A stretch of DNA of 40,182 nucleotides. Source: Lineolata rhizophorae. Taxonomy: Eukaryota > Ascomycota > Dothideomycetes > Lineolatales > Lineolataceae. The position numbers and the translations under genes are program-made. Numbering within the stretch: position 1 is the stretch's first letter; each line of letters opens with the position of its first letter. The notes below the pieces were generated by a model. That model worked only from the letters and a program-made list of their open reading frames with translations, was not told the DNA's origin and ran no database searches. This document shows, piece by piece, positions 346 through 37,805 of this stretch. Location: the NCBI GenBank assembly GCA_010093515.1, contig MU001677.1, positions 996,023 to 1,036,204 on the forward strand. The letters are read 5' to 3'.

Positions 346-2364
346 CACTAGGAGAGTACATTACTGCGTTTAATTTACTACTACATCAAAAAAAGATACA
401 TGACACGCCTAGGGCCCTTACGTAGGTGCTCCACCGTTTCTAACCGATTCCGCAAGTACATTGCTCTGAGCTAAGATAGCAGTTCTGTCACGGACAACGG
501 CGTCAATAATCACGACCTCATGGCCCAGCTAGGCCATCTTATCCAAGTGCTGTTGGCCTTGGGCTGCATCCTGTCGTACAACGCAGGCAAAGATGACTAG
601 GTCCTAGTGGCGAGGTGCCAAACGACATTCGACTTTAGTACCGTTAGCTGTATCGTTTAGCAAGTGTTTGCGGGATCAGGACCGGTTCCTCGAGAAACTA
701 ACATTAGGTGAGATAGCGTGCGCACGTCTCAAATGATGCCAATACTTTCGCAAAATTTGTTTTCCATCTACACTTATACGCATGCAGATAAATGTTGGCC
801 TCTGCAGATAACCCTTCATCCATCGTCCCTCGGCATGAAGGGGGTCCCTAGAGGCTGGTGGTCGGGCAGATTAGAACGGATCTCCCCACCACCATATCAT
901 TCAATCTAGGCTCTCGAGTTGTCCCGCTTGGGCATGGAGGTAGCCACAGCAGCTGCAACTTGGTCTCGCCAGGTGTATTTCCGGACTCGCCGGAACCCGG
1001 ACGCTTGGTTATTTAAGATCTCATGGGACGTGCCGATTCACGATCGGAAATGTAGCGTCGAGCCAACTTCCCCCAGTCCCCTCCGCACCAGTTGCATGAA
1101 GGAGAAGGAAATTTGGTCTAGGGAGCCACGCGACCTTATAATGCGAAGTGGGCGACTATCACGTGACAGGGACCTGAACACGGGACATGTGGGATAGATC
1201 AAGGCAGACACTTAGAATTTGGTGACATGCCAAGTGGACGACTTTTCATGCAGCAAGTAACAGTCTATCGGGAGCAGGCTTGAATGTGCGGATATCGTGA
1301 TGCTGGTTATCATGGTGATGGCCAAGGTGAAGCTTTTCTAGGGTTATTCAACGGCTTGTGGGTTGTTTTTCAAAACAGACAGAGATATGGTAAGTTCGCA
1401 AACAATAGGCCTCGATTAAGTGTCAAAACTTGCATAGAATGAAGAAATCAGCCAACTAGACAGACTAACTACGGAACTTAGAAAGAGTTGGCTCCAACGA
1501 GAGCAATATACGCTCGACGCCCCGACAAGCACGCATTTCGCCGCCACTCATAACCATGGCTTGAACCGGGAAGGATAGATAGTAGCGTAAACGTATTGTA
1601 GACTTATAGGCGTCGGTTATTTGCGCGGTCGGGAACTATGTTTAGCATCATGCCGAAGTTTTGGGTGTAGGTACCATGCCGAATGAACGGCGGCGACGCA
1701 ACACGCCACATGTAAGCTTTGTAGATAAGGTTGGAGAAAATCTAATTAAGCCGGTACAGACCCATTCTGAAAACAAGCAAGGCAGTCGCCTCCGATACAG
1801 TGCACATGTATGGCCAGTTGGAGCGAGATATCGTTTCCGCTAATTGATGCGGCTGAAGCTTTGCAAGCAGCGACTTACGTGGAAGAAAAGCTATACACAA
1901 GCTCCGTCATGAGCATGAATAGTACCCTCGTAGCCTGCGAGGTTTGCCACCCAGACCCGCGACCCTACCTCGCGGCCTTGTTGCCCCTGCTACAACACTT
2001 CAATTCCAAGAAATTTAGCCGATGAACGCTCACAAACACACTAAGAGGTTTTCAAGCTTCCAAAGTGCGTATTTCTAAAGGATAGGCCCGCAATGGTCTG
2101 ATGGGGATATACAACATTATGGTCTTGAAATAACAGCTGCCAATACTTCCACGCTGAGCAATCCGATGATGCTCTCCACATCCTTGCAGCTTCATCGGTA
2201 GCGCAAAATGTCGTTGCTACTACAGCATTACATATATAAAGATATATTTTATACATTGCAACCCAAACATTTCCTCTGTTCCACACATCAACACCAATGA
2301 AAAAACCTAGAGATGAACTTTCTTCTTCAGACACCTACTCAAGGTAGGAAATATGATGAAAAAA
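346..2364. other. Gene-poor stretch, no supported gene
   Basis: Open frames here are short, overlap on both strands and resemble no family I recognise. No tRNA, rRNA or long terminal repeat structure was seen. It is probably old transposon flank or decayed sequence. The right end abuts the first U2-like gene. Confidence 0.5.
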
Positions 2365-2562
2365 GTGTTATAATTCGCATCAGCCCGAAACAGTGCAATA
2401 CAGGCGACACAGTGCTTAGGAGGATGAGCAAGCCCAGAAGGCCCCCCAAGCCATTCTCAAAAACTTGATTAATCGTGTGAGGCCCGTAGGCCCCGAAAAC
2501 AGCGATTAAACTGTATAGAACAGATACTTCGTTCTGATCAAAGCCAAGAGGCAAAGAGAACT
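2365..2562 (-). ncRNA. U2 spliceosomal snRNA-like gene, copy 1
   Basis: Read on the minus strand, this 198-nt stretch follows U2 snRNA from end to end. It starts with a stem I hairpin (GCC-UCUU-GGC), then GAUC, then GAAGUAUCUGUUC (2518-2530), which corresponds to the U2 branch-site region GUAGUAUCUGUUC. Next are stem IIa with loop UUUAAUCG, stem IIb capped by a UACG tetraloop, and the loop IIa complement CGAUUAA. An Sm-like AGUUUUUGAG follows near 2456-2466, then a 3' hairpin whose loop begins UAUUGCAC, like the U2B''-binding loop IV. A T6 run at 2359-2364 follows. Length fits U2 (about 185-200 nt). Odd points are U to A in GUAGUA, U in place of the A just before GAUC, and a C in the stem I loop. 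It may be a variant U2 or a pseudogene; ends are approximate. Confidence 0.72.
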
Positions 2563-2600
2563 GAAGAAGAAAAAAAGGAAGTTTAGGCAAACTTGGGCGG

Positions 2601-2630
2601 CCTTTTATACTTTTGGGGAAGAAGTTTCCA
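2601..2630 (-). promoter_or_regulatory. Proximal promoter of U2-like copy 1: TGGAAACTTC element plus TATA box
   Basis: On the minus strand TGGAAACTTC (2621-2630) precedes AAAAGTATAAAAGG (2601-2614). The TATA-like core lies about 44 nt upstream of the inferred RNA 5' end. The same two elements with the same spacing stand before copy 2. Confidence 0.6.
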
Positions 2631-2639
2631 CCGAGATTA

Positions 2640-5620
2640 CTAAGCGTGTGATATAAGGCTCTGGCACTTGCGTAGAGCTGACTTGGGTTGCAATACTCGG
2701 TTAACGTGCGTGTGAAAGTAGTAAGGCCCTGGAAGCTTCTAACGATTTCCATATTGTTGCAGGCTGCTAGATCCATGAACTAGGATTCACCTAGCATGTG
2801 TGATGTGTGAATAGCTAAACAAAATGTTCTAGACGTCACAGACTTGTTTCTGCTTTGAAGATACTAGCAACTTTGTAACGTAGAACCTGATCCTAATATC
2901 CAAACGGATATAGCGTTGGCGTATAAACAACAGCGTCTGCTGCTCGTTTGCCTTGTTACAGATGTTGATCAGCAGTATCAACACACAACAAACTTTTACA
3001 AACAGTAGAAAGCTTTCACGACAGATAGCGAACATATCTGAAAACTTTGAAGCTATTTACAGTAGTATCACAGCCCATATATTCTTCCCAAATCTGAGAA
3101 AAGCCCGCGCGAGGGTTAAGGTCCACTCAGGGGTTTATGCTAAGGGTTTGAAATATACTCTATTTCCGCTACCTTACGGACAGGAAGTCGCAAGGTGGTC
3201 AATAAACGTGAAGACTGTTGCTATACAGTTAAACATGGACTATGCCTTGGAGGGATACATAACATTTGCAGGGCTAATAAGAGGGTAGCTCCAGGTTGCG
3301 TGAAGATATTAGACTATGATGGAATCTAAGCCCAGTGCGCTCAATTTTCTATCTAAAAATGCCACGTTTGGGTAATGCGTGAGAGCCCTACCCAAAGTTG
3401 AGAAACCAGACGTATCAATAGAGCACCTATATACAGAAGAACGATGGCATTTCCGGTAGGGCCTTTTTGTCTCAGCCATAAGGACCAAATGTAGAAGCTC
3501 AGTTCCGACTTATGTCCAGAACAAGCCACAGTCCTCTCGTTAGCTTGCACGCGGAATTGCCCTAGGTGAAGACATAGCTATACTCGCTGGTCGGTCTGGT
3601 ATCCGGACCTACCAGAGAGCAGACGTAGCGATAAAGACATGGCCTCCGACCTCCGGACTACGCAAAGCCTTAAAAATTGGCCCCCAGGAACAGTGCACCC
3701 GTATAACTCCCTTATGTGTAGGTATATGTGTATGTGTGTGTATGTGTATATGTCGATTTCAAGATCGAGAATAGTGCCTGCCCTATTGATATACAAGTGA
3801 CATAGAGAACATGTCGGACAATCGAGAATCGACGGCAGATAGCGACCTTTGACGGTGGTATATAGCGTATAGGTAACGTAGGACGATCTTCTGGTGGAGC
3901 TGTGAGCATATTGTAACATATCGGCTTGGTTGACGATATCCCACTAGGAAACACTAGCGCCATAGGGCGACTTTAACTATGCGTTTTTGATGGAACCTAT
4001 TTATTTGAACTGACTTGGTTGCTGAGCTCTTATCGTTTCACGTTACCTTGTGCTTTCGATTAGTTGTAGAAGCCCGTAAAGCCCGTAATATTTTTATCAA
4101 AGAGTTGACAAGAAAATGGCGAGGAACGATGCAAAACCTAGACGTTAGCTATAGCTAAAGAGCTAGACATTGGGCGGCATATAGATTGGAGGAGATGGAA
4201 AGGTGAACCATTGTTGACACTGCAAAAATCCGCTGGAAGACTTTTGGATGGGCGCCTAAGTCTGAGCTGGCGCTGGAAGGATTGCCACCCTCCATGGCAA
4301 CTGCCCTAACGTAGTAGTAACTAAGTGGTTGACAGAAGTAAATTTCAAGCTATAGTAAGCCGGCCGTGAGAGCGTCTCGTCAACAGAGACTGAACGATGA
4401 TGGAATCGTTCTCTTCAGACGTTGTGCAGAAGTGTCGAGTATGACGTTGTGCGGAAGTGTCGAGTATGACGACGCGTCTCGGGCGCATAACACCATAGGC
4501 CGAAATCTGCGATATCACAAGAGACCGTACGGAAGGACAACACCTTTGAATAAGAAATAAATGCAACGGCCATGTTTTATAAGGACGAGGCTCCAAAAGT
4601 CAACATTCCGCCATGTTCGAACGTAGTATTTTGCGTCCTCTGTTTACACTAGACCCGGAACGACCGCGAATCGCCTCACGATACATCTCGCAAGGAAAGA
4701 ACGTGTAAGCTGCGTCTGTTTGAATAACGAGACGATGTACTGGGCCGCATCACATCAACCATCAATGGTAAGGCAAGACAAAACAACACTTGACATTATG
4801 TATCTAAATTACAAAAACATATACATAACAGATGAAATGTCGGCTTCAACAGGCTTTCCTGCTAGGCAAACCGCAATGAAGATGGCAGCAAGCATTGCAT
4901 TTCACCCAAGAAGCCATTTTACTGTCCGCCTTTGTAGTAGATAAATGGGCATGAATGCCGCCGCATTTCTTAATTAAAGGCGTGATGTAGTTATCATGAC
5001 TCTCCTCAAGGGAGAACATGACTCCGTTCTACTACCCGCACAAGGCGGGAAGCTGCGTAACGAAGAAGAAAGGGAAGAAAAAGAAACTTGGTCGCAGGAT
5101 GTGGGCAGGTATTTATAGGGAGAAGCAGCAAGTTGCCCCGTTGCCACGGCCGGGCCGACCTACGCCGCGCTAGGGTGAATGCAAGTGCGGTCGGCAAAGT
5201 GACTTCCTCGCATCACAGCGTACCTAGCCACCACTGCCCAAGTTAAGCCAACACACTCTTGGATATGACTTTGGCGTAATCGGAATAGGCGTTTCTAGTA
5301 AATACGAGATGATCATCCTATCCACATTGAAAATTATCGCATGGATGAGATGTGTCTTGAGGATTGAGAATGTCGCCACTAAGCAGCTCAAGCTACGAGC
5401 CCTAGAAGTATTTACGCTCCAATATACCTCCCATAAACAAGCCAATGATGACCAACACAAATTCCTTGATAAGAGACAGTGCGCCCAAAGAGCCCTGACA
5501 GCTCGAGCGGAAGAATGCTGCGAAGCAGAAGATACAGATCCAACAAGCTTAGCAAACGATGTGAGCTCCAGAACCATCCTACGGGCCAAAACGCGTGTTG
5601 CAATGCTTAAGAACTAATAT
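2640..5620. other. Gene-poor stretch with a TG-rich microsatellite
   Basis: No open frame here is convincing. The stretch 3715-3756 is an imperfect TG/TA simple repeat. The segment 5224-5617 has open frames of 102 codons (plus) and 121 codons (minus) lying over each other just beyond the YEN1 stop. Neither resembles a known family, and the region may be YEN1 3' flank. A minus-strand reading of 5411-5518 ends in a hydrophobic tail (EFVLVIIGLFMGGILERKYF, then stop) but has no start I can identify. Confidence 0.45.
4419..4468. repeat. 25-bp tandem duplication
   Basis: Two adjacent 25-bp units (4419-4443 and 4444-4468), each starting ACGTTGTGC and ending GTCGAGTATG, differ at one base (A versus G at the tenth position). 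The near identity suggests a recent replication-slippage duplication. No function is evident. Confidence 0.85.
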
Positions 5621-8600
5621 CTACATATGAGTCAGGTCCAAAACGCGAACTTCGCTTTCCTTCCATGGTGCAGAACGACCATGTATAGCCATTGAGACAC
5701 TATTGTTCACTCCCCCAGCAAACTCCTGCAAAGACACTCCGTGTGTTTTCCCATCGTCGACGTCTACAAGTTTCCATGCGCCTTCGAGACTCTCCCGCAC
5801 CTTGACGAAACGCTCGCGAGACGAAGTCTGCAAAATGCTTGAGGGAGGGTTGGGCAATGACACCGAGGACATACAGCTGAAGTGGGAAGATGCGGGCTCG
5901 GACGTCGTGTAAAGAGAAGTGTAAGAAGATTTAGCTTGTTGTACAGACTCTGAAGAGGCAGCTCCGTATGGTTGAGATCGTGATCGGAAAATATTTCCAG
6001 ACATTTGCGAGAGATGCTGCCCACGTGGTGGGCGCGAGTTGCGAAGCACTGTGAGATCCTCATCCCTAGCACTTTCTTGACAATCGGCGAAATTCGCCTT
6101 TTTTCTTGTCAACCGCGATTCTTGCACAACGTTTTTCTCTGTAGGAATGTGTAAATCACGGCCTGAAATCGCCTGAGACGACGGGATGCCGGTCATATCC
6201 AACACCGAGCAGGTAGTATTGACCTGAAATATCATTGGCCCACTTGCCGACGACATTGTTGAGTTCTCGCTTTGCGTTCTCATGAATATGCCTCGGGCCC
6301 TCGCAGGCCCTTCCCAACAATCGCTCGTTCTCGTCGGAGACCGCACTGAATTGCTCTTCTGCTTTGGTCTACCTTCCCCAAGCTCAGGCTGTTTAGAGCC
6401 CCAGAGTTCCGCCGGGGATGCCAGCTCAGGGCTTGATATGATCTCAATCGCCTCATCAAAAGTGCCACCTGTTGTCTTTGTGGGCGCGGGCGTGGGCGTG
6501 GGCGGGCGCCGTGGCGATCGTGACCATCCGACAGGAGATCTTGGTGAACGACTGAAGCCTCTATTAGTTGATGGCGACATGAAACTTGTGATGCTAGTTT
6601 GTCGTGTGCGATGACCCGTTTCGGGAGGAGCAGATGATTCGGCGCGTCGACGATGCCGAGGTGGTGTCTTTTGGGACAAATCGACAGCTGGGGTATTCTT
6701 CGTCGGCTCTCTCGGGTTTGGTCTGGACTTTTCTTCACCTGGAGCGGATTGGGAACCTGAGACACCAACAGTCGATTTTGAAGTTGACGCAGACAAATCT
6801 AAAATTTGCACCCCTTTGGACGGCAGGACTGGCCGAGAGCCGCTGACCGCATTAGCCGGACTATAGTCCTTTATGGGTGATAAGCCACAATTCGGCTTCG
6901 ACACCTTTGCAAACCGATTCAATGTGCCTTGCTGTACGTCTTTAGCAGGGCGAACTTTGCGTCCTCGCTTCGCTCTGCCCGCTCCCTCAGCTCCACTAGA
7001 GCTGGCACGCGTAGTACTGGCTCCTCTTTTATGCCTCCCCCCTTGACTACCTTGCGAAGAGGGAGCCGGGTTTCCGGTACCACCTTGCCAGTCCTCAAAT
7101 GAGACTGGCGCGCCCGATTTTATGACGGATTCCAGGACCCATACACGATGTAGTTTTGACGGGTCGTATGTTCTCTGCCTTCCCCTTGTTCCAGCTCCCA
7201 TAGGAACAGTAGAAGAAGGCTCACCATCGTCTGCCATGTCTTCGAGAGCGTCGAAAGGGAGGGGCTCCACAGCTCCTTCTGTGTCAACCGCCAGAGGATC
7301 ATGCAAGCCGTCGCCAAACTGATAGTTGTCATCAGGTTCCTCGGCTTCGAGGTCGATAGGCACAATGTCTAGCGGGCAGTATGAGATGCGGATTTCAGGG
7401 GTTGAGTCCGTGCTGGCATGCGTTCTACGGGAGTGGATTTTGGCGACATATTTGGCCTCCTGAGTTTTGAGAGCATCAGGATCGGTCCCAATAGAAGCAG
7501 CATCTGTGGAACGACCTTGACCCATCTCCTCGTCTGCCCTGCGGCGTGCACATTGAAGTAGATTCCGGACAAGGAGAGCAGGCGCAAGACTCCTAATGAA
7601 ATGCTTCGCCCCACTGAGGCAACCCCAATCGAACGCATCCAAAGTAAACCTCCTCAAACCAACATAATCAAAGTCAAATGCCCTTTCAACTGCTTCCAAT
7701 CTCCTTCTCACTAGCTCGAACGTCTCCGGCTTCGACAACACCGGACTCATATAAAACCGAAGCGCCTCTGCATGGGGGAAGTTGTCCGGCACCTTCAACT
7801 TAGTGTGCTTAGAGCGAAAGAACTTGCTCTCGTTAGTGCGTATCTCGTGGCGGAGTCGCTCACGCCAGGCATCCATGCCAGCCTTGTCGCTAGGCCGGAG
7901 AGAACAGAGTTCGCGGCCGAACCCGGCACGGGCGGCAGATGCAGCTGTCTTCGCGCCGCAACCCTCGATACCCTGCGGAATGTAGTCGCCGCCAGACATG
8001 AGAGCGAAGAGCACCATGCCAGCTGGATCGAGTGACGTCGCGAACTTGTCCACTCCTGTCCCTGTCGCCTCAGCAACTGCCGTGGCAGACGCATGCGGTA
8101 CTCTCATATTGACGTACACATCGACATGCGTTGGCGTCTTGTTGCTCATAGCAGCGCTGCCCTCCCCGCCTGCCGCAGCCGCCTTTGCCTTGACATCTCC
8201 ATTGTAGTTCCGCAGCGTGACACCGCAGCCAAACATGAGTGTATCGACATCATCTGAGAGCACGGCATCCACGACACCTGCGCGCTGCAATGCCGCGCAC
8301 TCAGCCTCGGCCTCCCCCTGCGCTACATGCACGACGATGCCGAACTTCTCCAGCACTTGCCTTGCGAAAAGCGTGGCGTCTGTGCCGCCGGCACCTGTCC
8401 GCGCCGCTAACGATGCAGGGCCGTCCCCTCCCGTGCCGAACGTCCGCTTGTTGCGCTTGAACGGCGGCTTGTGCGGCCCGTCGAAGACGAAGACTGGGTT
8501 AATACCGAGGGAGAGAAGGCGTAGAATTCGGTAGTAGAGAGTGCGTAGAGGCGCATTGGTGCCGCCTTTGCCCGCGCGCACTTGGAATAGCCAGATTGAG

Positions 8601-8816
8601 ATATCGATAGCGAGGCGTAGTGGCCGGTTGTGCGCGGCTAGGTGAGCGGATGAGAGGCTGGCCAGGGCAATGCGGCGCGATGATGCGGCCGTAGGGCTCG
8701 CATTGAGCTCTCCGAGAAGGCTGGATGGAGAAAAGGGGGTCGGTCAGTTTTGTTGTTTGTAGGACTGGCGTTGAAGCCAGTGGGAGAGCGGGGAAATCAT
8801 ACCCTTGGATACCCAT
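5621..8816 (-). CDS. YEN1: YEN1/GEN1-type Holliday junction resolvase (XPG/Rad2 family endonuclease)
   Basis: Two exons, 8816-8803 and 8720-5621, flank an 82-bp intron (GTATGA...CTGACC...CAG). Splicing gives MGIQGLLGEL, the canonical XPG-family start, and a protein of about 1,037 residues. The N-terminal XPG domain shows D44 (AIDISIW) and FVFDGPHKPPFKRNKR around D85. The XPG-I domain has GEAEAEC (E141, E143) and SDDVDT (about residues 161-165). The helix-hairpin-helix region begins GGDYIPQGIEGCGAKTA (D250). The acidic metal-binding residues of the family are therefore present. The long C-terminal half is low complexity with many S/T-P sites beside basic residues (TPPRHRRR, SPRSP, SPRRP). This suits the known CDK control of yeast Yen1 localisation and activity, though that is inference here. 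Members of this family cut four-way DNA junctions after replication and recombination. It is transcribed divergently from the AT-hook gene. Confidence 0.93.
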
Positions 8817-9242
8817 CGCACTGGCATGTTATGATGCAAAAAGTGGTTCCAAAAGACTATTTGTTTCCTATCTACTGTAGCGACCGATTTCGCATACTTG
8901 AGATAGTCGAAAAGAATCGTTGGTGGTAATAAAGCTGGCCGCGATGGATTGTGACTCTTACGCTTGGTGCCGGCGTTCCCGCGCTACAATGCGCTAACAT
9001 GGCTGGATATTTGGCGGGGATCCCTACGCCAAGCCGAGTTGCCTGAGCAACACCGACCCCTGGCGATGTTCCCCATAACAAACGGCGCGTTTGACGCCCT
9101 GTGCTGCGCGCACGCCAAACCCAAAGTGAAAATTAGTCAAAACAACACGATCACATAGCATACATGCATATTCAAACTCAACTTCAATATTCTTTCCCTC
9201 GTTGAAACATTATCAAAAGTGCACTCGTCAAGTTAATCCATT
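8817..9242. promoter_or_regulatory. Shared divergent promoter between YEN1 and the AT-hook gene
   Basis: The 426 bp between the two start codons contain no credible coding frame and must carry both promoters. Pyrimidine-rich tracts (TCAACTTCAATATTCTTTCC) lie just before the plus-strand start. No specific factor site could be named with confidence. Confidence 0.5.
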
Positions 9243-12200
9243 ATGCGTGGAACTCCCGCCGTTCGGCACCATGGAGGCGTCGACGATGATTCCCTGCCTG
9301 CCCCACCCTCATCGCCGGTATCCTCGTCTCCGGATCCATTGGCCCTGTCGACATTGTCACCAGCAATCACATCTCATCGCATTGGTTGTCGTGCCAAAAC
9401 ACCTCTGGGAATCCGCTCCGCAAACGCTTCAAATGTGGACGGCTCATCCAACAGAAGAACACCCCAAAAAAAAGACAGAAGCGGGCGTGACCGTGCCATT
9501 GTGCATACAGCTGATCGAGACGGCCATTCGAGTTATGCCAAAACATCCTCCCCTTCGAAGTCTGTCACCTTGAACACCCCTACTATCGCTGGCCCTCATG
9601 GCACTTCCTCCCCTTGGAAGATCCGTGTCACCGTTGAAGCCGAACCGAACACGTGCCCAGGATCTTGGAATGAAAATATCAACGAGTTTGGTGAGCGGGA
9701 GAATCCGGCCAACTTCCCAGGCAGCCCGACACCTGTGCGTCGCCGTGGACGCCCATCATCTGCGTCTCCTATGAAGAAGCGATCGCAAGGCCGCCTCTCT
9801 ACAAAGAATGATACTCGAACTACGACCGTGCCCCTCAAAGATGCGGAAGACTCTGCGCCAGTACGTCGACGGGGCCGTCCGCGGAAGAGCGATGTGGGCG
9901 CTGGGGCTACGCCTCCAGCGAAGAACAGGAAGAGGGCGGCCACCCCGGCAAGAAGAAAATCTAGGGGAAGAGAGGCCGAGAAGTATGTGGAGGTAGACGC
10001 GGCGGATGATGTCTTTGGAGGAGAGGTTCAGGCAGCCGACCATAAAGCCAGGGGAACCAAGACTACCGGGATCCTTGCAGTTGTCGCTGACGACGTTGCT
10101 GACGACGGTGATGTTGAGGCAGCCCGTGGCGAAGGCGTAGAGGAAGAGAGCCTCCATGCCAGTAATGCGATGTTCTCGGATCACATCTCAGGAGCTGAAA
10201 ACATTGCTCATCGTCCGTCGGTTGGCCAAGAATCGGGGAAGAAAAGGGGGAGAGGCAGGCCGCGGAAAGAAACTAAAGAGCCGATGGGTCAAATGACCCC
10301 ACAGAGGAGAGAAACAGCCGACCTGAAGAACATTGCTGCCCACTGCAAGGATCGCGGAGAAGGTGAAGAAAAGGTTATTTCCGAGCGTGCGCCGGGTTCT
10401 GTAGACTGCAGCAAGTCAGCATACCCTGCTTCCGAATCGCAAGAGAACCAAGATGTTGGAGAGTCTAAAGGGGTTTTGAAGCGGCGTAGTGGCGAAAGCT
10501 ATCAAGGCTTTCACGGTGCTTCACCATCCCCTGCTAGTGTCTGCACGGAGCCGCAAAACGCGCAAAAAAGGCAATATGCTCCTTCTAACAACTGCTCCAC
10601 CGACCTGGTGGGAGAGAGTAGCGTCCTCAGCGATAGTGACGCGTCCAGTGTTGGGGGGGCGAGGTACCCAGCTGTAGGTGGAAAATACCCGCGCTTACGT
10701 CTCCCGGAGCTTCAGTCGCGGCCTGGGACGCAACGAGAAATTCTACAGCGGCGACCCACGCCAGTTAAGCCGCGCGAGTGGGGCCAGGAAGAGATCGACT
10801 TGGTGCTGTCTTCAGATTCACTAGACCCAATGGAGAAGGAGTCAGACCACGATGACCAACACGAACAAGAGCACATGGATCAGAGTGATCCGTCTTTAGT
10901 AGCGCGAGACGCGTCTACACAGGAAGAGCGTGCCCAGAATGGAGAGAACGCACTTGGCAATAACTCTAGGTGCCTCGACGGGGAAGTAGGCTCTCGTGGT
11001 CCAGCCTTTGCTCCGCAGGGCGTATCAGAAGAGTATAAGGTGGCGGGCAACTCTGACGCCGAACTGGGCCACGATGACAGCGAGGTCTATCAACAGCACC
11101 AAGATGCCGATGACGAGGAAAAAGATGACTCTCCCGATCATGGTAACGGTCTATCTGAGACTGTTGGCGATCAGACAATTCTCGAAAGTGAGGGATTCAG
11201 TATGGTGTCTGTGGATTCTTTAACAGGTGAACTGGGAGGTGCAAGTGCATCTGCGGAGGATGTCATGTCAGGCATCGAGTACGGCACACGTCATTCCGAG
11301 TTGGGGCGCATACGGGAGCCCTGCAGCAAGCAGCGACAGGCAAACCCTTCCCCTTCTTCACTACCGCGCTCGACAGGCCTATCGGGACCCTCTAATTCGC
11401 ATACAGCATCTTCTGAGAATCCTCATTCTATCTCAGAGCTTTCACTCCATGAATCTCCTGACGCCCAGGCAACTTCTAATCGTCACCCTTCAACCAATCT
11501 GGACACATTATCAGCTACTGATGCTTTCTCGACAATCTCTCGGTCATCTATTCATTCAGCATCATCTGCCAGTCAGCCCCAATGTTCGGGACAGCACACC
11601 CATGTTCCGCCAAATCGGCAGTCTGTTGTGTTAGACCATTCATTTGGCGGTCAGCCATCTTTCCATTCTGTACATCAAGCGAGCTATTCGGTATTTGATT
11701 CGGTCGACTTAGGTCAGAAAGGTTTGTTGTTCCTTGTCTACTATCGTGCGCCCGTCCTAGCAACAAGTCAGCTTTTACACTGGTAAATGTCGAACTAACA
11801 CTAATCTGCTGCAGGCACGCCACCTATTACGGAACAGTCCAGTATCTCTCGAAGACCTTCGCCAAAGGCGCCATTTTCGTCTCTCCATCCACCCCCTTCA
11901 GCCTACGGGCATGGACGCCACAGTATGAGCTCTCGCGCCCGGGCGGCGACGTCTCCTGAATTTTCATACATGCCCTCGTCCCCTCCTGTCGCTTTTCCTG
12001 CTATCATGCAGCGAACCCCTGTCCAGCCTGCGCCGGCCTTTCACGTGTCCTCTCTTTCTACTCCTTCGGCACCTCATCTGCGATCGGTCGACAAGGCGCT
12101 CTTGACGCCGCCGCCAATCGAGAGCGCTGTCCGAGCTGGCATCGCACTACAAGGTCTCCTTGATGCCGGCAATGACGCGCCACAGAACTCGTCCGGACTC

Positions 12201-13814
12201 TCGATAAAAGATCGGTCGAGGCTGTCATCCCCCATGAAAGAATCGCAGCGAGCAAGCGTTTCGCCGGCGCAAGCATATGGAGGGCACTCTGCAGTTGGAA
12301 CCTCGGTGATAGCATGCTCAGAGCCACATAACCCTGATAAAGAATCGTCTCTAGAACCTAACCAACGTAGTGCGCTTAACGGTCCCCGCCAGCGCTACGA
12401 AAGACTCTGCGGTTCTACACGCAAATCGCACGTTTCGCAATTATCCAGCAACATAGTCGCAGCACCAATAGTCCAGATTGAACCGGTACACTATCCTTCA
12501 TTGCCATCAACACCAAATGACTCTCCGCAACTCATCACACCATCTCCTACCTCGGACGAAGACAACGCCCAAAAAGAGGACAAAAGTGCTTGCGATTGGC
12601 AATACATGTTTCGAGCCCGCCTGCGTTCGCGAACGTTCTCAGAGGAGCCGAATCCAATAGACCAATTACTCTGGGAGGAAACGGGCAGCGAACTTCCTTA
12701 TGAAGGGGATTCGCAGGGTAGTCTGACTGCCACAATTGGAGAGAAGCAAGCGTGCTCCGCAGAGAATCAGCCAGACTCTCAACAAAAGTCGAGACATCGG
12801 GATTCGAACTCTCGCTGGGCTCCCATTTCTGGAGAACTCCGTAATAACGATAAAGCTATGCCGACTCCCTCGCCACGACTATGTATCGAAACGACGAAAG
12901 GGGACCCTGACAATGCTCGTCGAATAATAGATTCAGCGAATCCATCGTTACGCCGCAGATCCACCGTCAATGAAGAATCTCGTGCTTGTGCTCAAATACA
13001 AGCGCACCACGAATCGCCGCTCCAGAGCCAACACTCTACCAGGCACAACACCGGCAACGATAGTCGTCGAGTCAGCCCTGGGCCGGCCCGCCAGACCCAA
13101 TCATCATGCCATGGTACCACCACGCACCGTCCCGACGCCAGTGCCTCGTCACAAAACCGCAAGTGCAAAGCTAGACTTTCTCGGGATTCACACCCCGCTC
13201 TCCGCGGCTTACCTCAACTTCCTCGCATCCAGCCATGGACCCGCACGCACTTTGCAGTCTTAGACAAGCTTTGGCAGCGGCGCAAGGCCAAGCCAGAACT
13301 ATTCTCCGCCAGCTTCGAGCTCAACGCCGGCCATCGGCTCTCACCGTGGCTTCGGAAGTGTCTCGACATGGAGTTCAGGGACTGGGGGTTACATGGCAAA
13401 TTTGGGCAGGAAGAGATCATGATCGCGAGTCTTTTCATAAGATTGTTGGCACTCGACAATGCGGCTGCGTACGAGCGGACCCAAGGAAGAGGCAAAATTG
13501 TGGTTGGGGAGTGTCTGCCGCTGGCGGGAGAGGAGGAACAAGTCGAGATCTCGGAATGGGAGGTAGTCCGTCGGCTCATTGGCCTCGCCATTGGCGAAGA
13601 AATCCGCGAAATGGAGCGATTGGACGAGCAAATTGATCGCAGCAAGTCGTTCATGGTGTGGTTTGCGGGCGTCGAGTACTCTGAGGACAAGGACGGGAGC
13701 CAGACGTGGGATGATTACTGGGATTATTGTCCCCATGCCGACGCCTTGGAGAAACATCGCATTGCTGCTGAGAATTGTGACGCTCGCGGCTCAAGCATTT
13801 CTGCGTCCTCATGA
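9243..13814 (+). CDS. Large AT-hook nuclear protein with a conserved fungal C-terminal domain
   Basis: Exons 9243-11721 and 11815-13814 are joined across a 93-bp intron (GTTTGT donor, AACTAACAC branch, CTGCAG acceptor), restoring frame as QKG-TPPITEQ; the product is about 1,492 residues. Three AT-hooks are visible: RRRGRP (about 166-171), RRRGRPRK (about 208-215) and KKRGRGRPRK (about 333-342). Such motifs bind the minor groove of AT-rich DNA. The middle is serine, proline and acid rich and probably disordered. The last 200 residues form the only clearly globular part, starting at PWTRTHFAVLDKLWQ (about 1290), then a tryptophan-rich helical region (WLRKCLDMEF, ISEWEVVRRLIGLAIGEEI) and an acidic tail. 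I recognise this as a fungal AT-hook protein type but know no established function. A role in chromatin is likely. The ATG chosen is the first in frame after the shared promoter. Confidence 0.85.
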
Positions 13815-14534
13815 TGCAGAAGACTGAGCGTCGGACGGCGAAGGGATTTAGTGGACACGAAGGGGGGTAGAAGTGAAAGGCGTAGGCAACCCCACCCGTG
13901 AAATTGCTTTGAGTTTGGTTTTGTAGCATGACACTCACGAGGACTTTGGTCCGTGCATTTTGTCAAATTTCGTAAGGTGCCGTGTATTCCTTATTAACTT
14001 CCTTGTTTATTGGAGGTGAAGCGTATAGCTTTTGCCTTGAAACCTTGCTCTACAAGTTTCACAATGCATCAAGAGAACCCACAATGGAGTTTTTTAGGCA
14101 CCCTGATTTTGATGCGAGAGGCCTCACACTTCAAAGCTCGTTGCCACCCATACCATGTGATCAGACCATTGTAAGTGGTTGCTTCGCAAATTATTCGTTT
14201 CTACAATCAATTGGCAAGTGATAAGTGCTGAACAGAATCCAAGTGAGGTCACATAAACGCGCGTTGTTTGAATCCCGGCCCACGTATGTATTGGTCATGG
14301 GTACGTTGTGTTCTTCACCTAGCAGGAAAACCACGTCAGAACTACAAGCAGGCCACAAAGAAAGCCTTACTAAATTCTTGCCTTGCGTCACTTTCCTAGA
14401 GAAAGAGATATATAAATGCATGGTTGACTCCCACGGTAGACAAAATTTGTTTCTCACGTCCACAACATCTTGGTCTCTAGCCTCTTACATTTGGAAAACC
14501 CATTACCGCTTCTTCCTTTCTCAAGTCCTCCAGT
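13815..14534. other. Intergenic stretch, 3' flank of the AT-hook gene
   Basis: No supported gene. Open frames are short, and nothing resembling an RNA gene or repeat was found. Confidence 0.5.
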
Positions 14535-14969
14535 ATGGTAGCCTATCCGTACCCCCCCAAAAAAATCGTCAAGCCTCAAATATCGGCCATCCCTAACAGT
14601 TGCCGGAAAACCACCCAAGATGACAACAAGGCCATGCCAGCAAGAGGCAATGGTAGTAGGCTAATGGAATTGTTGGAGAGGCTCATCAACGTTGGCTCCA
14701 GTAACAAGTCCGATATCGTCTTCCTCCCAATACCTAGACCGCCAAAACCGCCTCCCAGGCCTCCTCCCCCATCACCCACCAAGAAGTCCATCAATATTGG
14801 CCCCGACACGAACGCTGATACCGTCTTCCATCCTATCTCTAAACCGCCAAAGTCGCCTCCTGGCCCCCCTCCCTGGTCACCCGATGATCAAGTAAAGACA
14901 CCCATGGAGGTTTCCACGAAGGCAGTCACTGTTCCGCGCATGATATGCTCTTGTCGCTTACCCAAGTAA
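14535..14969 (+). CDS. Hypothetical proline-rich protein with two 35-residue repeats
   Basis: An ATG-started frame of 144 codons contains two diverged tandem units in phase. The first (from 14685) runs INVGSSNKSDIVFLPIPRPP and the second (from 14790) INIGPDTNADTVFHPISKPP; each continues into a proline block. The period is exactly 105 nt. Several differences between units fall at third codon positions. The frame ends MICSCRLPK. The opposite strand is also open across the repeat and reads as a glycine-rich protein (GGGLGGGFGGLGIG, 14576 to about 14890). Third positions of the two frames coincide, so substitution pattern cannot tell the strands apart. The protein family is unknown to me. Confidence 0.3.
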   Translation: MVAYPYPPKKIVKPQISAIPNSCRKTTQDDNKAMPARGNGSRLMELLERLINVGSSNKSDIVFLPIPRPPKPPPRPPPPSPTKKSINIGPDTNADTVFHPISKPPKSPPGPPPWSPDDQVKTPMEVSTKAVTVPRMICSCRLPK

Positions 14970-17900
14970 CGAGGCACACAAGTACGTTCTGGAGCATGGA
15001 GATCCATGGTGGACTTCAATTCCGAGTGTTCACCGGGACTCGGGACTCGATTTCTGACTACGTACAATTCTAGAACTCAATAGGACTGCTATGACGGACT
15101 TGAACATGCCGAATCCTCATCGGACCCGAGTAGTAATCTTTTATGAACGCAAGGTTTCTTTCAAAGTCCAAACTCTCCACTTTTTGTGAGCTCTAGCAAA
15201 ACATTCACACCAGGCTACTCAGATTGGCCATAAATCTTTCATACTCGCATGCTAGCTGCAAAAGCTGTATGGTCTCTTTTGATCGTGGTGCCAAATACAG
15301 GCTTTTGATTTCTGCAGTGCCGTTTCTTTCTTTGCAATAGTGAACGCTTTCATGACTGTCATATCTTGTTTAAGTCTTCCCCTCCAAAGGTATGCATTCC
15401 CGTACTTATTATGCCACCTTTTTGATAATGTCAAACCAAAAGCAACATTGGATATGACTCTAGTTTTATTCTTCTATAATTTTAATGCGGAGATCTTGCA
15501 GGTGTTTGTATAGAGGTATTTTAACGAGCGCGTGGGGGATTCGGGGTAGCGAACGAGGACGGTGAGGCGGGAACATATGCGAACTGAAACTTCCGTTCAA
15601 CAAAACAAAAATATCAATCACATTTAACTTTCCATGATCTAGCAGACCTGGATCACTCACTATGAGTACTGACCCCCCTTCCCCCACCCCCTCCTCCAGC
15701 ATCAACAGTAACTGCATCTATTGACTTGGTCTCAGAGGAGCGGCTGGTCCGGCCTGGATGTGGGCAGGGAGTAAGGGTCAACATAGTCCGGCCACTCGAT
15801 TCAAGCGTTGAACAGCTTCGGGGCTAACTTTTTGGGAATGGCTTTTGTTAGATATCTTGCAGAACCTCCGTGATAAGCCACGAAAGAGATTCACGGGGAA
15901 ATCTGTTTCTCCCTGGCCGCTCGGCCTTGCGGAATCTCGAAGCTGCACCACCTCTACCCCCAGTCGAGCCAATAACGGCCCACGCGAGCAACCCCGAGGG
16001 CGCCCACTAACGCCCTCGCAACGTTTGCGATTCCGTCAATTCCACGACTTCCAGCCTCTCCCCCCTGGCTCATTATCCCCTCGAAATACTCAATAGCAGG
16101 ATACCCGGACTCTAGGACAAGCGGTATTTGTCGGGAGAATGCCGTCACAAGAATGACAATAGCGATTTCGTGGATCCCCGTCGTCTTGGACGACGAGGTG
16201 CTGTCTTTCCACTGGATCGAGCAAGACTGGAACGTCGAGGCTACAAGCAAGCATTCAACGGCAGTAGTTAGTCATCAATAACAGTACACGCCTGGAGAGA
16301 AGTCGCACCTTGAAATCCGATGCTGGTTGCCGTAGAGCCCCTGAGAATTCTGCAGTCAGCATTTTGTTTTCACTCCCGGTAGAGGAAGAGCACCACTCCT
16401 TCAGCTCCGTATCCTCCTCGATAGCCACACGTCGTTTGTTCACGCTACAGCTCTGTAGACAACTAGGACAAAGATTCCAGCTGTCAGTCGCCGGAGTCGA
16501 CGCACACGAAAGGTGTTAAATACCCTCCACTCGAGTTTTGAAGCTAGTTCACCTTGGGAATTTCACGAGGAAAGAGCCATTGCCATTGACTTCGTACGAT
16601 GGTAATGAGGAGCGACGAGCTCGCGGGCCATGAGGTTTGACCAGGTTACCACGGATGCGGAGTATGAGACGGAGCTGGAAGAATGTAACAATGCGATAAG
16701 TATCAAATGCTGAGCATTATTAGCCAATGGCTACTCTCAATATAATTCATCAATGCTAGAGTAGCGAAGCTCTCTCTAGAGGGCTATAATGTACATATCG
16801 AGTAATGTATGGGAGCCTGGAATAAGAAGACGCACTGCTGGACGCCCGGCCAACAAATCAACACGACACTTTTGTCTTCTACAGCAGACGGGCGACCTTA
16901 ACTGGGAATGCCTCAGAACCTGGTGTGAGCAGGCCATAATATGCGCGCCTTGCCCCCCAGCTGGGGTACAAGGTTATGACACTGCATGAGAAGGCATCCG
17001 TTGGTCACTAACGACTAGAACCTTTGTGAGAAACCAAAGACTTGCAAGTTGTACCGGGACTTTTATGACTGGTATAAATCGCGGACCGATCGTGGAAAAA
17101 TGTGTTCGATCACCGAGCGTAGAAAAGGAGAGGTTGAGGGAAATATGCGGTCTAGATGAGGTTCTTGTATGCTGCTATGAGAGAAACTGTCAGAAATCGT
17201 CTATTTTATCTTGAAGCAGTCTACAGGTGGTATAAATGTGAAAATGCGGACTGCTTTTGCTGCAGAGGAAGAGCTTGAAGGACGAACCTGTCATAGTTGC
17301 GCATGTTTATGGCAATGCGATGTTCCATATTTCTCAGTATACTTCTCTTTGCCTCCTCCGTTTGATGTACTTGCAGTTTCCTCAAGCTCTTTCGAACCTA
17401 CTTTATGGGTGCGGATTTTGGCTTACGTGCCGTAGAGGTAAGGCTTGAGTTGTGCGACCGTTGACATACACAGTTTGCTAGGTGAGAGATGCTATCTTGC
17501 AATCGAAAATTAAATGTAGAACAGAGTTACACAGATATTAAAGCTTACGAGCGTCCGTGGACTTGAGCTCTCAGAGGCTTGGGCTTTGCGATCATCGTGG
17601 GTTTGGGTGTTTAGCTGTGTAAAAGCGGTGGTGATAATGTCAAGAGACGCATCCGAGAGCTACTGCAAAATGCATAAGTATTAGGATTAGAGCGATTCAA
17701 AAAAGATATCAGATCCTACCTTATTGGTTTCTACAACTTTGCTTTCACAGATCAAAGGTGTTGAAATGAAAGCCTTGGACGGGTGCGACTACTGCGGCGT
17801 GCCGTTACGGCGCGTGGTGAGAGCACCGCCAAGGAACGCGACACGCGTTAGAGCAACTTTAGGAGCAACGACGATGGTATACAACTGCATGCTGTAGACA

Positions 17901-18549
17901 ACACTTGCTAGACGCGTTAGAATCTCTCTAAAGCTGTTCTAAGTGCCACTAGAAGCGCCTGTCCGTTTTGACACGGCACGACGTAGACCAGCGGGTTCGG
18001 GCGTCGGTCCGCCACGGTTGCAAAACTTCAACACCACACAGCCATCAACACTTATTATGCGACAGTAAATCCACACAAAGCATCATCAGAAGCTAGAAAG
18101 AGCCTCATAATAAGCGTAGGCTGTACCACGTACGATGCCAACTGCATTTTCATAGCCACAATCGGCCTCAGACACGGCGTATTACGGGAACACTTCGTCC
18201 TTACTGTCCCAGATGCATACCCATTTGCCTTACTACGCCATAACCTGATCTTTTTACGCAATGAGAAAGCAAGGCATGATTTGTTCTTGCAACGTGCTAT
18301 GGGAAACCTATCATACAAGCGCCTGGTTATCATGAGATAGCCAGTTCAAACCTTCCCTCTCAACACCAAGACCACACAGCCACGTATGACACAGTAGGCA
18401 TCACGGCCAAATTATCATGTCCATCTTCATCATCAAAACAACCTCATTGTTAGCTGTTCAAGCCCACCAAGATGCCATGCAGAGCCAAGGTAAACACCAA
18501 ACATTTCTTCTTCAAACACCTGTTCAAAACAGGAAGAGTGATGAAAAAA
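14970..18549. other. Gene-poor block; possible decayed minus-strand gene around 15950-16700
   Basis: Most of this block shows only short overlapping frames. The exception is 15950-16700, which is GC-richer. On the minus strand it has a well-formed intron at 16241-16308 (GTGCGA donor, ACTAAC about 28 nt before the TAG acceptor). The upstream exon frame reads KRRVAIEEDTELKEWCSSST through QPASDFK. Splicing continues it as PRRSSLARSSGKTAPRRPRR and stops soon after. Other frames on both strands across 15954-16280 are also open, so the true frame is uncertain. No family is recognised. Confidence 0.3.
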
Positions 18550-18739
18550 GTTCGCATCAACCCGAGATAGTGCAAATACGAGTGACACGGTGCCCAGGGA
18601 GATAAGCAAGCCCAGAGCTCCCCGAACCATCTCTAAAAACTGGTTTAATCGTGATGAGGCCCGTAGGCCTCGAAACAGCGATTAAACTGTTTAGAACAGA
18701 TACTTCAAACTGATCCAAGCCAAAAGGCTAAGAGGAGCT
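18550..18739 (-). ncRNA. U2 spliceosomal snRNA-like gene, copy 2
   Basis: This 190-nt minus-strand segment aligns throughout with copy 1 and with U2. Stem I is AGCC-UUUU-GGCU, the usual U2 sequence. GAUC follows, then GAAGUAUCUGUUC (18694-18706). Stem IIa is a perfect AAACAG/CUGUUU around loop UUUAAUCG. Stem IIb is GAGGCC-UACG-GGCCUC with a UNCG tetraloop, followed by the loop IIa complement CGAUUAAA. The Sm-like site is AGUUUUUAG (18633-18641). The 3' hairpin ACUCG/CGGGU carries loop UAUUUGCACUAUCU, close to the U2B''-binding loop. A T6 run (18544-18549) follows. GUAGUA is again GAAGUA, and the A before GAUC is G. A 65-codon ATG frame (18433-18630) overlaps it but is not conserved in frame in copy 1, so an RNA product is the better reading. 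Ends are approximate. Confidence 0.75.
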
Positions 18740-18780: not shown

Positions 18781-18810
18781 GTTTATATACTTTTGCCGAC
18801 GAAGTTTCCA
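18781..18810 (-). promoter_or_regulatory. Proximal promoter of U2-like copy 2: TGGAAACTTC element plus TATA box
   Basis: TGGAAACTTC (18801-18810) and AAAAGTATATAAAC (18781-18794) stand in the same order and spacing as at copy 1, with the TATA core about 47 nt before the inferred 5' end. A pyrimidine-rich CTTCTTCAG at the start site is also shared. Confidence 0.62.
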
Positions 18811-36550: not shown

Positions 36551-37805
36551 GGCGTTCGTAGGAGTGTCGTCGAGAGTGTTTCGTCGGATCGAGCCGCGAA
36601 TCGCAGCTGAGAGCATAGTTCATCGTATCAGAACTGTTATGACGGCATCATGAGATGCTAGATTAGAAGATATAGAGCGAGATTTTATAGACTAAAACTT
36701 TCCTTTCATAGATCACTACATCACACGCATAGTTCCACACCATTGCCACGGCACCACGCGATCAGACGTGATTCTCCTCCAAATACCAGCATCGAGGCAG
36801 GACATTTGATGAAGGAAAAAAAGGAAATCACGCAACACTGGAGGTAGTGCAATACCAGCGCAACGTGTTAAGCTCCAAAAATTCACAGGCACAGCGCACG
36901 AGGAGCGTCGAGCCCCCAGATCCCACAAACTCGCAGGTCGACAGGGCCGACCACACACCGAACTCGCCGGGAGGCTCCGTAGAGCGCGAGTGGACAGATA
37001 CAACGAATTATTTGACGTCTCTCTGGTGGCTGGCCTGTGTGGTGAAGAAAGAGAAAAAGAAAAGAAAGTGGGATGGGGCAACGGCAGAATTTATACCTTG
37101 CACAAGCCATGACAGCTTGGCGCCAAGCCTTGAGCCAGAGGTGAATGATAACCTCTTGCAAGCAAGAGCTTCAATTGAAACACCTCACCACCGGGCAAAT
37201 GCCCCACTGGACAGCGGGAGACAAAACCGAACTTAATGGCTTTCTCTCCAGCCAGGGAGGTGGGCCATTAAAGAAGATATTTTTGCCCTTGAATAGACTT
37301 AGCTATTTAGGTGTTAGACAAGTGTTTGAATTTATAGAGATCTAATTCTATTTGGTGGAATGTTCCATTGTGACCTAGCTAGAGTAGAGGTCTCGCGCAG
37401 AGTGTGGTTCGGTGCGTACGCTAAAGTTAGTCGAAATAGTTATCCACGGTTCCGGAGATGCGTGTTGGTACAGGAGAATGATTTTAGAGGCACTCTCGAA
37501 GAAAGCAAGCAACAGCGATGAAAATCTGCGACCTCGAATTCAATTCCAAGGCCGTCCGCTCTAGCGCGAGGATCAAATGCAGCCAAGATCTAGCGTGCGC
37601 CACCCCCGGATGCTGAGAGTGAGACAACCTAACGTTCGCGAAACTCAGCCACATTTTGGCGATCCTCCGCCGTGCCGCGCGTGACGGTTCAGCCTTCCGA
37701 AACCTATCCAACGACGAGAAGTCTAGATGGCTAGGCACAGGTGTAAAGCTCCGCTATAAAGCCTGCGCTCCTGTCTCATGTCTACTCTTTACCATCGATT
37801 CGCCC
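36551..37805. other. Intergenic stretch between the CCCH gene and the CorA-like gene
   Basis: Several frames of 80-130 codons overlap on both strands with no family resemblance. It should hold the promoter of the CorA-like gene. Nothing else was recognised. Confidence 0.45.

Follow-up and report, generated by a model that had tools for sequence, protein, structure and literature searches.

Two diverged U2 small nuclear RNA genes of Lineolata rhizophorae belong to a dispersed family that may supply variant splicing particles

Two genes for U2 small nuclear RNA (snRNA) lie on the minus strand of a 40,182-nucleotide stretch of the fungus Lineolata rhizophorae (the window; contig MU001677.1, here C8, positions 996023-1036204, in a genome of 31 Mb and 48 contigs). 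In both of them the branch-site-recognition sequence, canonically GUAGUA, reads GAAGUA. Copy 1 (locus L021) occupies positions 2369..2564 and matches the Rfam U2 model (RF00004, gathering score 46) with 101.5 bits (E value 1.6e-19), while copy 2 (L014) occupies 18546..18739 and matches with 127.8 bits (E 8.1e-26). Both span model positions 1-192 of 192. Our own U2 model gives 208.9 and 198.3 bits, respectively, both copies being members of its training set. The original prediction, made from the letters alone, had placed two U2-like segments, reaching from the 5′ hairpin to loop IV, on the same strand with some 16 kb between them; the full-length matches bear this out, and its coordinates are correct within a few bases. 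It had also called the copies clearly diverged, as is indeed the case, with 156 of 192 aligned positions identical. The recognition sequence is at 2525..2530 in copy 1 and at 18701..18706 in copy 2, and neither window copy has the GUAGUA by which a U2 is judged.

Each copy has its own transcription unit, on the minus strand throughout. The promoter, which had been predicted for each copy, consists of a GGAAACTT box and a TATA element, at 2603..2629 (C8:998625-998651; one mismatch to the family pattern) for copy 1 and at 18783..18809 (C8:1014805-1014831; no mismatches) for copy 2. Beyond the RNA is a hairpin box, the presumed 3′-end signal, at 2317..2359 (43.2 bits) and 18502..18544 (41.6 bits), both boxes being members of the training set of the box model. 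The U2/U6 helix I motif (GCU..GAUC) is present as GCUUUGAUC and GCUUGGAUC in the window copies. The pairing of the U2 5′ end with the U6 3′ end (helix II) scores 9 in copy 1, which none of 500 shuffles reaches, and 7.5 in copy 2, which 9 of 500 shuffles reach. The Sm-like site and loop IV, the predicted U2A′/U2B″ site, read GUUUUUGA / GUUUUUAG and UAUUGCACU / UAUUUGCACU in the window copies. Neither copy has the features of a U2 pseudogene, promoter, structure and 3′ signal all being kept in both. As read from the sequence, the genes show a full-length U2 fold, U2/U6 pairing stretches, an Sm-like site, loop IV, a promoter of the RNA polymerase II snRNA type and a common 3′ hairpin. The predicted open reading frame of 65 residues does overlie copy 2.

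A covariance scan of window and genome, which the original prediction had proposed, gives significant matches in both and places 16 U2 loci on 7 contigs, all 16 above the Rfam threshold; these and the other snRNA locus counts are lower bounds. The highest-scoring U2 is L009 (153 bits), the near-canonical L010 and L011 score 140.2 and 137.9 bits, and the lowest-scoring copies, L023 and L024, score 48.2 bits each. RNA identity ranges from 74.6 to 94.9% (mean 81.6) within the GAAGUA class and from 74.0 to 94.0% (mean 82.7) among seven GUAGUA copies. When 1.2-kb loci are compared, pairwise matches of at least 150 bases end at a unit of about 330-390 bp that comprises promoter, RNA and 3′ hairpin box. 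The copies form clusters of 4 in 82 kb on C8 and 3 in 74 kb on C13. A U2-variant family and an old local duplication had both been suggested for the window copies. The family stands, while purely local duplication is insufficient and was rejected as the sole origin, because the copies are spread over 7 contigs and the matches stop at the ends of the short shared unit.

The other spliceosomal RNAs are fewer. There are 7 U1 loci (E up to 7.4e-12, none reaching the U1 threshold), 1 each of U4 and U5, and for U6 1 locus above threshold (L034, C17:515728) and 1 below. The latter, L035 (C17:441854; 43.6 bits, just under threshold), is a diverged copy 74 kb from L034, and the downstream flanks of the two are similar by eye. 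All 7 U1 loci begin with AUACUUACC, and therefore the reading of the 5′ splice site by U1 looks unchanged. No match to 5.8S ribosomal RNA was found in the assembly, and therefore the ribosomal DNA may be missing from it.

The helices are preserved by paired changes across the U2 copies. In 14 copies (L023 and L024 left out), with a structure that is favoured by having been derived from the alignment itself, standard pairs fill 97.1% of 545 pair cells against 92.4% in shuffles, and both-sided changes occur at 11 of 39 pairs against 5.3; none of 500 shuffles reaches either value. Sliding by one to three columns lowers the standard pairs to 39-51%. Swapping stem II arms, chosen by hand, among 15 copies (L023 left out) gives a similar picture: in stem IIa own arms pair at 82 of 90 positions and swapped arms at a mean of 3.21 of 6, and in stem IIb own arms pair at 74 of 75 and swapped arms at a mean of 3.9 of 5. 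The segment folded alone forms the IIa and IIb hairpins in 14 copies (all except L023 and L024). The helix I motif is present in 15 of the 16 copies, 14 of them found by pattern and that of L024, which stands behind an A, by eye.

The recognition sequence divides the family. It is GUAGUA in 8 of 16 copies, GAAGUA in 7 (L012-L016, L020 and L021) and GCAAUA in L024, so that 7 of the 14 well-preserved copies are altered. All seven GAAGUA copies are clustered, four in C8:991-1074 kb and three in C13:923-997 kb, and no other Rfam U2 match lies within either interval. These clusters also hold the window's third snRNA-like gene and the diverged U1 locus L030 (C13:936263-936409, minus strand), which has the shared promoter with 2 mismatches. 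The longest invariant run in the seven copies is GAAGUAUCUGUUC, whereas 80 of 196 columns differ or are gapped, and the letters immediately upstream of the run vary in sequence and length. Immediately before GAUC, at the position of A24 in human numbering, every one of the 7 GAAGUA copies has G or U, and 7 of 8 GUAGUA copies have A, L023 being without GAUC. The GAAGUA change itself is U34 to A in the same numbering. Repeat-induced mutation was rejected as its origin because the change is T to A. The seven copies likely form one clade in trees of the aligned sequences, with support of 96/95 from all columns and 76/76 without the trait columns; in a tree from the 3′ half alone they are not one group.

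Such a family could also arise by birth and death, in which U2 cassettes, promoter included, duplicate occasionally, leaving mainly old duplicates that are poorly expressed, decaying and without a role of their own. This is a possible but doubtful account. The low scores of L023 and L024 are consistent with it, the sub-threshold U6 copy L035 suggests that snRNA duplicates decay in this genome, and GAAGUA loses an otherwise conserved nucleotide, pseudouridine 34 being described in PMC4950102 as the only pseudouridine conserved across all organisms analysed there. However, paired helix changes, promoters and 3′ boxes are kept at about 74-95% RNA identity, and the recognition segment is unchanged across the seven GAAGUA copies.

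If the GAAGUA copies read branch sites of their own, A34 would pair with U, and a separate class of introns with CTTAC would be expected, since GAAGUA would be complementary to UACUU(A)C. Introns were counted genome-wide by the patterns GTAAGT..GCTxAC..CAG only, against a backwards control, the counts including double matches from one start (19 distinct of 21 for GCTTAC, 29 of 30 for GCTCAC). GCTAAC gives 120 against 21 backwards and GCTCAC 30 against 12, while GCTTAC shows the least excess, 21 against 15. A CTTAC class was therefore rejected for introns of this form, there being no excess over CTCAC. CTTAC does occur in 5 of the best 50 introns predicted ab initio; it is given little weight because these introns are noisy, because 2 of the 5 also have CTRAC and because CTTAC reverse-complements the start of the 5′ splice site. 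Inspection by eye of introns at 11 Ras-family loci shows CTRAY sites in most of them (one has CTCAC, one is unclear and one has both CTGAC and CTTAC), although in the Ras-family gene adjoining the U1 locus L028 one intron appears to use CTTAC. On this evidence a U2 of altered specificity is very improbable.

A TATA element is located 43-65 bases upstream of the matched RNA in all 16 U2 loci. When up to 3 mismatches are allowed, the promoter pattern GGAAACTTNNTCGNCAAARGTATAWAA occurs at 25 places in the genome and nowhere in the backwards control. These GGAAACTT..TATA sites belong to 13 U2 loci (L010-L022), the U1 locus L030 and 11 new sites, ten of which were read directly and one across the joined L008 and L076. 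L009, L023, L024 and 6 of the 7 U1 loci are outside the 25. The GGAAACTT box is absent from L009, the most canonical U2, and also from the U1 loci L028, L029 and L031 and from U4; a looser form can be made out by eye in U1 L025. The 3′ hairpin box, typically TCATCATTCTTCCTACCTTGTGTAGGTGTCTGAAGAAGAA, follows 16 U2, 7 U1 and the U4 loci and was not found after the U5 locus. A box model was trained on these 24 boxes, those of L024 and L031 being placed by hand. Judged by RNA and 3′ box together, 16 of the 25 promoter sites are snRNA-like: the 13 U2 loci, L030 and the new loci L068 and L073. No 3′ box at E < 1 was found in the roughly 300-430 bases read at the other nine new sites (L067, L069-L072, L074, L075, L077 and C13:961924), and because of these the promoter was not accepted as a mark of snRNAs only, its restriction to them not being proved. 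One of the nine, L071, may be a protein gene. A long hairpin with 32 of 34 bases self-complementary is present in L074, and the site at C13:961924 has an Sm-like site, GGAATTTTTGG.

L068 and L073, which both have the shared promoter, combine a known 3′ end with a different 5′ domain. L068 (C12:260868-261298) has the U2 3′ domain with Sm site and stems III and IV (100.2 bits with the model from 14 copies), an unrelated 5′ domain without GUAGUA, and a 3′ box with E 1.3e-8. L073 (C12:369462-369772, minus strand) has a U1-like 3′ end, GGCAUAAUUUUUGAUGUCC, and a 3′ box with E 5.2e-7, while its 5′ domain is different and AUACUUACC is absent. Neither box was in the training set, and Rfam models at E up to 1 detect neither locus. 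The variant U2 RNAs might likewise have a non-splicing or dominant-negative use: they would assemble Sm and U2 proteins but form poor pairs with branch sites, and would thus serve as competitors or sinks, in the manner of L068 and L073, whose 3′ parts are kept while recognition sequences are lacking. Such a role is unlikely for the GAAGUA copies, since they retain stems I and II and the helix I motif, none of which a sink would need.

The third snRNA-like gene of the window, also on the minus strand, was placed at 36822..37042, with ends inferred (fold z-score -2.60; 2 of 200 shuffles as good). It has GUUGUAUCUG at 36995-37004, an Sm-like GAAUUUUUGG within 36873-36884, a U2-type loop IV hairpin at 36838-36859 with the loop GGUAUUGCACUACC, and a TATA region at 37087..37100. 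Its 3′ box (36772..36812) scores 13.7 bits (E 0.017) and, in the 331 kb scanned, is the sole one at E < 1 to be added to those of L068 and L073. Rfam U2 gives no match at E up to 10, and our own U2 model recognizes stem IV alone (15.6 bits, E 0.38). From these elements the gene is likely to be an snRNA. The original prediction contained neither this gene, nor the GAAGUA change, nor the sharing of the promoter. Its description of the surroundings as gene-poor DNA fails for the window as a whole, in which long open reading frames match Gen1, a CorA-type transporter and Mit1, the last with its MIT1 chromo domain. These proteins suggest a Pezizomycotina ascomycete.

Compared with canonical U2 (RF00004), the copies are alike in full-length fold, Sm-like site, loop IV, size and snRNA-type transcription unit, but unlike in having GAAGUA for GUAGUA in 7 of 16, G or U before GAUC in those seven, and 74-95% identity within a class. 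Human variant U1 snRNAs (PMC5159530) have likewise diverged as paralogues from a core snRNA and are reported to have a regulatory role, although they are U1 RNAs of an animal, while the present ones are mainly U2, in a filamentous fungus, and mostly under one promoter element. The snRNA isoforms of Drosophila and mouse also form multi-gene families; according to PMC4291461, snRNA genes present in many copies have apparently evolved in concert, whereas the fungal copies differ widely. GUAGUA is not kept in trypanosomatid U2 either, being UUAUAA in Leishmania major, but PMC4950102 describes pseudouridine 34 as the only one shared by all organisms that it analysed, and the fungal GAAGUA has an A there. 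In an open-access library, including a Neurospora small nucleolar RNA paper (PMC2780460) and a review (PMC11482624), no description of diverged U2 families in filamentous fungi was found, although one may exist elsewhere.

The window segments are best read, with moderate confidence, as real U2 genes of a dispersed and diversified family that numbers at least 16, the majority probably working, and in which the GAAGUA copies would be weak or conditional U2 small nuclear ribonucleoproteins (snRNPs). Several observations weigh against this. Among the 16 copies, whole-RNA fold z-scores against plain shuffles lie between -4.08 and 0.03, weakest in L024, L022 and L020, and are poor for L017 (-1.65), L020 (-0.95), L022 (-0.58) and L024 (0.03). 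Helix II scores are reached by shuffles, out of 500, 39 times in L015, 80 in L016, 77 in L017, 160 in L022 and 185 in L023. L023 and L024 look decayed or rebuilt. L023 (C12:327473-327660, minus strand) has a rebuilt 5′ domain with an 8-bp hairpin, CACUUAGC/GCUAAGUG, and keeps GUAGUA while the GAUC of helix I is absent. The invariant run GAAGUAUCUGUUC is weak by itself, because 648 of 10000 column shuffles give a run of 13 invariant columns. The shared promoter is no mark of altered copies alone, because the near-canonical L010 and L011 carry it, and an intron class fitted to GAAGUA was not found among the GTAAGT/GCTxAC/CAG patterns. It is because of this last result that weak or conditional snRNPs are favoured for the GAAGUA copies.

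In the favoured reading, the U2 variants would be transcribed as RNAs of about 195 nucleotides, would bind Sm, U2A′/U2B″ and SF3 proteins, and would join spliceosomes with the few U4, U5 and U6 RNAs. On the usual CTRAC branch site GAAGUA would lose the pair at U2 position 34 together with the pseudouridine there, so that these copies would act on ordinary introns as weaker or conditional U2 snRNPs. Since most U2 copies have the promoter in common, a shifting share of GAAGUA copies could tune splicing. More tentatively, the GGAAACTT..TATA promoter, absent from the most canonical U2 gene, might co-regulate a set of variant snRNPs made up of 13 U2, at least one diverged U1 and the chimeric U1- and U2-like RNAs, and a U2 class without U34 might then form alternative spliceosomes whose behaviour at branch sites is changed.

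Few RNAs are as strongly constrained as U2. The membership of both window copies in the altered GAAGUA sub-family suggests a set of variant splicing particles, and with 16 strongly different U2 genes in a compact fungal genome, 7 of the 14 well-preserved ones altered, RNA-based regulation of spliceosome composition would become directly testable in this organism.

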